A stretch of DNA of 64,000 nt from Chaetoderma sp. LZ-2023a (Eukaryota > Mollusca > Caudofoveata > Chaetodermatida > Chaetodermatidae). The stretch covers positions 32,625,733 through 32,689,732 of the forward strand of contig CM067367.1 in the NCBI GenBank assembly GCA_034401795.1. Direction: 5' to 3'. A model generated the notes under the pieces. It did no database searches and had not been told where the DNA came from. It saw only the letters and a program-made list of their open reading frames with translations. This document shows positions 1,043-47,111 of the stretch, piece after piece. The first letter of the stretch is position 1, and each line of letters starts with the position of its first letter. A program made the position numbers and the translations under genes.

Positions 1043-1175
1043 TTGTGGCATTTGCAGGAGGTGAAAGGACTGTGTCGTACCAGCCGCTAGTAGAGTCCTC
1101 ATGCACCAAACCAAAGTCTCCAATCTTCACGAGTAACTTATCTTTGTCAGTGTGTTGAAGGAAGATATTGCTTGG
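1043..1175 (-). CDS. EIF2AK1: EIF2AK1-like exon 12 (DFG); gene continues left of window
   Basis: Encodes residues 738-781: PSNIFLQHTDKDKLLVKIGD, then FGLVHED, then the start of the activation segment. PSN completes HRDLKPxN, and Asp757 of DFG is the metal ligand. Acceptor AATCCAG, donor GTGAGT, phase 1. No later exon was found in 1-1042. Confidence 0.92.

Positions 1176-47111: not shown

Follow-up and report, generated by a model that had tools for sequence, protein, structure and literature searches.

Does a repeat-rich stretch of DNA in which no exon stands out as an open reading frame (ORF) hold a complete gene, and if so, of which family? The original prediction for this locus of the mollusc Chaetoderma sp. 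LZ-2023a, made from the letters of the sequence, was that 12 minus-strand exons scattered over 46 kb join into an HRI-type eIF2-alpha kinase. We analyzed the window, a stretch of 64,000 nucleotides (C9:32625733-32689732 of a 2.44-Gb genome), with 80 kb of left and 40 kb of right flanking DNA added from the same assembly. Exons were reconstructed by motif searches together with three-frame views and splice sites. As detailed below, the locus very probably carries an ordinary HRI-type eIF2-alpha kinase that would work like other HRIs, a reading to which we give a probability of about 0.95. The window gene itself adds one more member to a known family; what is new here is a second HRI copy.

The 12 exons in the window, running on the minus strand from 47111 down to 1043, share one open frame, and all 11 introns between them are of the GT..AG type with agreeing phases, just as predicted; both end coordinates, the ATG at 47111 and base 1043, were exact to the base. 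E1 (47027..47111) starts with this ATG, encodes aa 1-29 and ends in phase 1, and the evidence for it consists of the open frame from the ATG and the donor GTAAGT, which places it with E8 as the least certain of the exons. E2 (44851..45039; aa 29-92) and E3 (42831..42961) encode the N-terminal helical domain HRI2_3H, with E3 carrying His 119 of this protein, the only putative haem His that is retained, and a 71-nt linker exon, E4 (41999..42069), follows. The kinase starts in E5 (39421..39544) with the glycine loop GSGGFG and continues through the catalytic Lys (YAVKK) in E6 (36260..36340) and the alpha-C Glu in E7 (34769..34865), which spans REVKAL to YHTAWLE. The kinase insert starts in the 49-nt E8 (34181..34229) and is almost entirely encoded by the 1201-nt E9 (30112..31312). 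E10 (19368..19446) carries LYIQMELC, the hinge and alpha-D, E11 (12788..12891) carries alpha-E and HRDLK, and E12 (1043..1175) carries PSNIFL, DFG and the first part of the activation loop; base 1043 is the last before the donor GTGAGT. For ten of the 12 exons, all but E4 and E8, just one of the three frames is open.

The remainder of the minus-strand gene lies to the left of the window, with the start of intron 12 occupying positions 1..1042. The C-lobe exons expected on this side were located there: E13 (-2510..-2595, relative to the window), E14 (-5408..-5548), E15 (-7324..-7419) and E16 (-9459..-9605), all on the minus strand, the last of which holds the stop and a C-terminal coil-like sequence. 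The gene thereby extends 9.6 kb beyond the window edge, and as a whole comprises 16 exons and 15 AG/GT introns over 56.7 kb, with 937 codons, no internal stop and one terminal stop.

The surrounding DNA contains several kinds of repeats. Among nine ORFs in the window scanned with Pfam, two matched a reverse transcriptase, one a Tc3/Tc1-type transposase and six had no match. The reverse-transcriptase ORFs (PF00078; 6653-8887 and 23835-26393, both minus strand) lie in introns 11 and 9 on the gene's own strand, and the ORFs adjoining them, as scanned, gave no Pfam match. The transposase ORF (49520-50545, plus strand) is uninterrupted, encodes 342 aa with HTH_Tnp_Tc3_2 and DDE_3 domains, and lies upstream of the gene. 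Intronic tandem arrays were observed at 2525-4255, 21373-22009 and 28424-29843, one built from a 62-bp unit repeated 28 times at 98% match and the other two from a related 21-bp unit, and intron 4 carries a GTA trinucleotide array of 62 units (41271-41456).

When the joined protein was compared with Pfam, PF22949 (HRI2_3H) matched aa 62-137 with 68.3 bits (cut-off 27, E 5.4e-19) and PF00069 (Pkinase) matched with 140.6 bits (cut-off 31.7). The motifs GSGGFG, AVKK, REVKAL, HRDLKPSN, DFGL, HTxxVGT and the alpha-G motif TEMER, the last two common to human HRI, were all present, and the catalytic Lys, Glu, HRD and DFG were intact. The predicted coverage of the N-terminal domain, G-loop, Lys, Glu, HRDLK and DFG was thus borne out. 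In a phmmer comparison of the kinase part and coil, with the insert left out, against PDB sequences, human HRI (9rhh) was the best match among the best 60 of 631 matches with 229 bits, followed by PERK (186), yeast GCN2 (142) and PKR (132). The kinase part was 47.9% identical to human HRI and 42.6% to human PERK. At the C terminus, hydrophobic residues occupied 71% of the a/d positions of the 48 residues of E16 in the best-scoring of seven registers, by a heptad count only.

PERK is a membrane protein of the ER with a lumenal domain. We weighed the reading that the gene encodes a PERK-like or unclassified eIF2-alpha kinase, with HRI-like N-terminal exons joined to it by chance or exon sharing. 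A kinase-only tree of five sequences is compatible with it, as the AU test gave p 0.538 for placement with HRI, 0.533 with PERK and 0.076 with GCN2 and rejected none of them, and the stretch REVKALA..IVRY and PSNIF are PERK-like. However, the HRI-specific helical domain lies in one open frame with the kinase, the best 19-residue hydropathy of 1.36 points to no membrane span, only 190 residues precede the glycine loop, and the match to HRI was 43 bits better than that to PERK. Moreover, when the paralogue described below was added, the tree separated the window copy, the paralogue and HRI from PERK and GCN2 with an ultrafast support of 93, with one outside HRI sequence only. Across the 937 aa, neither Pfam (E 0.001) nor hydropathy revealed a PERK signal peptide, lumenal domain or membrane span before the kinase, and at the same Pfam threshold there was no match to the dsRNA-binding domains of PKR or to the RWD and HisRS-like domains of GCN2. 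The PERK-like reading is consequently highly improbable, and the predicted HRI assignment is preferred on account of the HRI2_3H domain, the bit-score gap, the lack of a membrane span, the coil-like C terminus and the split with the paralogue. In sources of incomplete coverage, published work on HRI from molluscs, oysters, bivalves, sea urchins and the silkworm offered nothing useful, a result of little weight.

A whole-genome search with PF22949, which missed E2 of the window gene and was thus not exhaustive, gave two sites, E3 of the window gene and C9:32785371-32785460 on the plus strand. Around the latter, 140 kb were examined and a second HRI copy, here HRI-B, was found on the plus strand (C9:32785297-32918145, from E2' to E14'), with copies of E2-E7 and E9-E14 in order. 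Each of these 12 exons is preceded by AG and followed by GT, differs in length from its counterpart by a multiple of three and contains no stop, so that exon order, splice sites and phases are shared with the window copy. The amino-acid identities to the window exons were 70% for E2, 49% for E3, 55% for E4, 88% for E10, 82% for E11 and 64% for E12, and counterparts of E5, E6 and E7 were also present. The two genes stand head to head on opposite strands with divergent transcription, and the ATG of the window gene is about 112 kb from E2'. E1' was not seen in the 4.5 kb before E2', nor were E15' and E16' in the 2.6 kb after E14'. One HRI-B intron contains an 89% identical copy of the 7.1 kb that surround the first reverse-transcriptase ORF of the window (4901-11924).

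A whole-genome protein search returned 31 matches at E 1e-3, and all 16 with at least 52% identity fell at the two HRI loci (10 + 6). The other 15 had 30-46% identity and 27-52 bits, and among them may be exons of the genome's PERK or GCN2. The 357-aa query of this search included the coil, for which the listed matches were at the window gene only. Separately, a genome-wide kinase search gave ten dispersed matches of 669-675 nt, covering profile positions 2-213 and each with one TGA and one TAA inside, and an eleventh with two TGA and one TAA (examples are C17:93352258-93352932 and C13:83743615-83744289); these look like a multicopy kinase sequence family.

Two of the exons, E4 and E8, had been predicted purely because the phases of their neighbors required them. 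To rank them, we enumerated all phase-compatible, stop-free mini-exons of 20-249 nt that keep a distance of at least 60 nt from the ends of the surrounding intron, and scored them in a leave-one-out manner, using splice-site matrices derived from the remaining exons of the gene. The ranking covered E3, E4, E6-E8, E10, E11 and E13-E15. E4 ranked first of 99 candidates and E8 first of 94. The ranks of the other window exons were 1/60 for E3, 1/140 for E6, 3/71 for E7, 3/759 for E10 and 125/2089 for E11, and those of the exons left of the window were 1/221 for E13, 2/201 for E14 and 2/106 for E15, indicating that the method performs well where introns are short and poorly in the 18 kb that surround E11. 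Considering the Pfam scores above the curated cut-offs, the openness in a single frame, these exon ranks and the paralogue, the joined frame exceeds what would be expected by chance.

For E4, a direct join of E3 to E5 would have to use one or more sites with a score no better than -2.3, compared with 6.3 and 6.2 for the sites used. The paralogous exon E4' is 74 nt long, against 71 nt in E4, with identical phases, and the two match at the DNA level (80% over 61 nt, E 1e-9), which argues that E4 is very probably a real exon. Over the 22 codons of E4 alone, there were 5, 5 and 6 changes at codon positions 1, 2 and 3, respectively, without an excess at the third position.

For E8, no similar sequence was found in the HRI-B intron between E7' and E9', where the best local score was 19; 60 shuffles averaged 21.4 and reached at most 26, and the reverse strand gave 24. 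It is conceivable that the gene is real and E8 is not an exon, with E7 joined directly to E9 through the upstream acceptor 31328, the only acceptor that allows such skipping. This acceptor gives an open frame in phase 1, and its sequence also precedes E9 in the paralogue, which together with the missing E8 copy would fit skipping; however, it scores -0.8 compared with 7.5 for 31312, and the splice sites of E8 are the best among its 94 phase-compatible candidates. As in the window gene, E7' ends in phase 1 and E9' requires phase 2, implying that HRI-B has either an exon of the E8 phase or the same weaker acceptor, which is visible there. On balance, we regard skipping as unlikely and keep E8 in the gene model. 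The predicted coordinates of both mini-exons were exact and both ranked first, and the paralogue provided a copy of E4 and none of E8. The segment 20-150 nt before E9 (31333-31462, and about C9:32874369-32874498) is 82% alike in both HRI copies and is perhaps a shared repeat. Reading the raw sequence by phase and splice sites recovered a gene with exons dispersed over 46 kb of repeat-rich DNA, among them one of 71 nt with a counterpart in a paralogue outside the window.

Nei-Gojobori counts with bootstrap over 554 codons of the two copies gave a dN of 0.231, a dS of 0.580 and a dN/dS of 0.40 (95% bootstrap 0.31-0.51). The ratio was 0.28 for the kinase exons, 0.31 for all exons but E9 and 0.66 for E9 alone, and single exons varied from 0.19 to 0.71. 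Between the copies, 11 exons aligned at 0.69-0.89, and E9 at 0.34 because of its length difference. For 18 of the 24 intron flanks, the value fell among those of 60 random pairs (mean 0.59, maximum 0.63); a further three were at 0.64, and those after E2 (0.73), before E9 (0.82) and after E10 (0.71) were clearly above random.

The two copies also differed in rate. At 251 sites compared with human HRI, the window copy alone was changed at 5 and HRI-B alone at 20 (p 0.0027); the corresponding counts were 4 and 17 with PERK as the outgroup (p 0.0046) and 3 and 16 with GCN2 (p 0.0029). Human HRI, human PERK and yeast GCN2 are invariant at 76 positions; of these, 8 were altered in HRI-B alone and none was altered in the window copy alone. 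The 8 changes include the third Gly of the glycine loop, which is Ala in HRI-B, the Met, Glu and Arg of TEMER, which reads TELPK, and the following alpha-G Arg, while HRI-B keeps the catalytic Lys, Glu, HRD and DFG. The rate asymmetry and the changes at invariant sites suggest that the window copy is the conserved one, which probably keeps the ancestral job, and HRI-B looks like a constrained but faster duplicate. That the exons are pseudogene relics in a repeat-rich region rather than a working gene could be argued from the repeat-rich introns, two of them with reverse-transcriptase ORFs inside, and from the faster-evolving copy nearby. Against this, the 937 codons contain neither a stop nor a frameshift, the dN/dS lies within the bounds given above, and no invariant position was changed in the window copy alone, all of which makes decay of the gene extremely improbable and favors a working gene.

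The kinase insert of the window copy spans 416 aa (aa 261-676, between YHTAWLE and LYIQMELC), 401 of which are touched by E9, and is rich in Ser, Asn, Asp and Glu. In comparison, the insert of human HRI has about 130 residues (approximately 241-370) according to PMC9520036 and PMC13181343. The 499-nt E9' of HRI-B aligns with E9 in three main blocks, and for the extra stretches of the window copy (about aa 357-493 and 554-657) few short pieces align in HRI-B. The whole-protein scan gave no Pfam match inside E9, and in two C9 stretches of 184 and 140 kb around the two genes there was no sign of E9 being a repeat, as its DNA matched only itself and the HRI-B exon.

The mammalian haem ligands are mostly missing from the window copy. 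In the alignment, one His was kept of the N-terminal haem pair of human HRI, which we take to be H119/H120, and in the PDB alignment the C411-P412 site reads Cys-Asn and the C553-P554 site Trp-Pro. Haem control by the mammalian residues is doubtful for this reason. In HRI-B, by eye, E3' has Phe in place of the single putative haem His. As reported in PMC12303383, Schizosaccharomyces pombe Hri1 still binds haem without these mammalian residues.

Since the same parts as in human HRI are present, the same mechanism is the default. The protein would dimerise through its C-terminal coil, its activation loop would be autophosphorylated, and eIF2-alpha would be phosphorylated, slowing translation under haem, mitochondrial or proteotoxic stress. 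By analogy with human HRI, we infer that this is most likely how the coiled-coil folding, kinase activity, dimerisation, substrate and stimulus of the window HRI are to be understood. According to PMC9520036, human HRI forms its dimer through the coil, autophosphorylation is helped by dimerisation, and full activity requires the insert; PMC13181343 names haem, DELE1 and others as regulators. A more speculative proposal, possible and yet not the one we favor, is that the pair has split roles, with the window copy remaining the eIF2-alpha kinase and HRI-B either acting on a different substrate or serving the window copy as its partner or brake. HRI-B is under constraint, with TEMER replaced by TELPK and LR by LC in alpha-G, an altered glycine loop and the putative haem His lost, and the longer insert of the window copy might be part of such a division of labor. 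In any case, the pair offers a natural experiment on the parts of HRI that are responsible for eIF2-alpha binding and haem sensing.

Among known systems, PERK (EIF2AK3) resembles the window HRI as an eIF2-alpha kinase and differs from it by its membrane span; its lumenal domain is mentioned in PMC5025754. The fungal Hri1 and Hri2 of S. pombe are HRIs with an N-terminal domain and a split kinase, and the mammalian His pair and Cys-Pro motif are missing from Hri1 as well, whereas their inserts are about 141 and 107 residues long by the subdomain limits given in PMC12303383. In contrast to human HRI (EIF2AK1), the window copy has a longer insert, broken C-P haem motifs and one of the two N-terminal His residues; nevertheless, it shares with human HRI the domain order of an N-terminal helical domain, a kinase with an insert in the N-lobe and a C-terminal coil.
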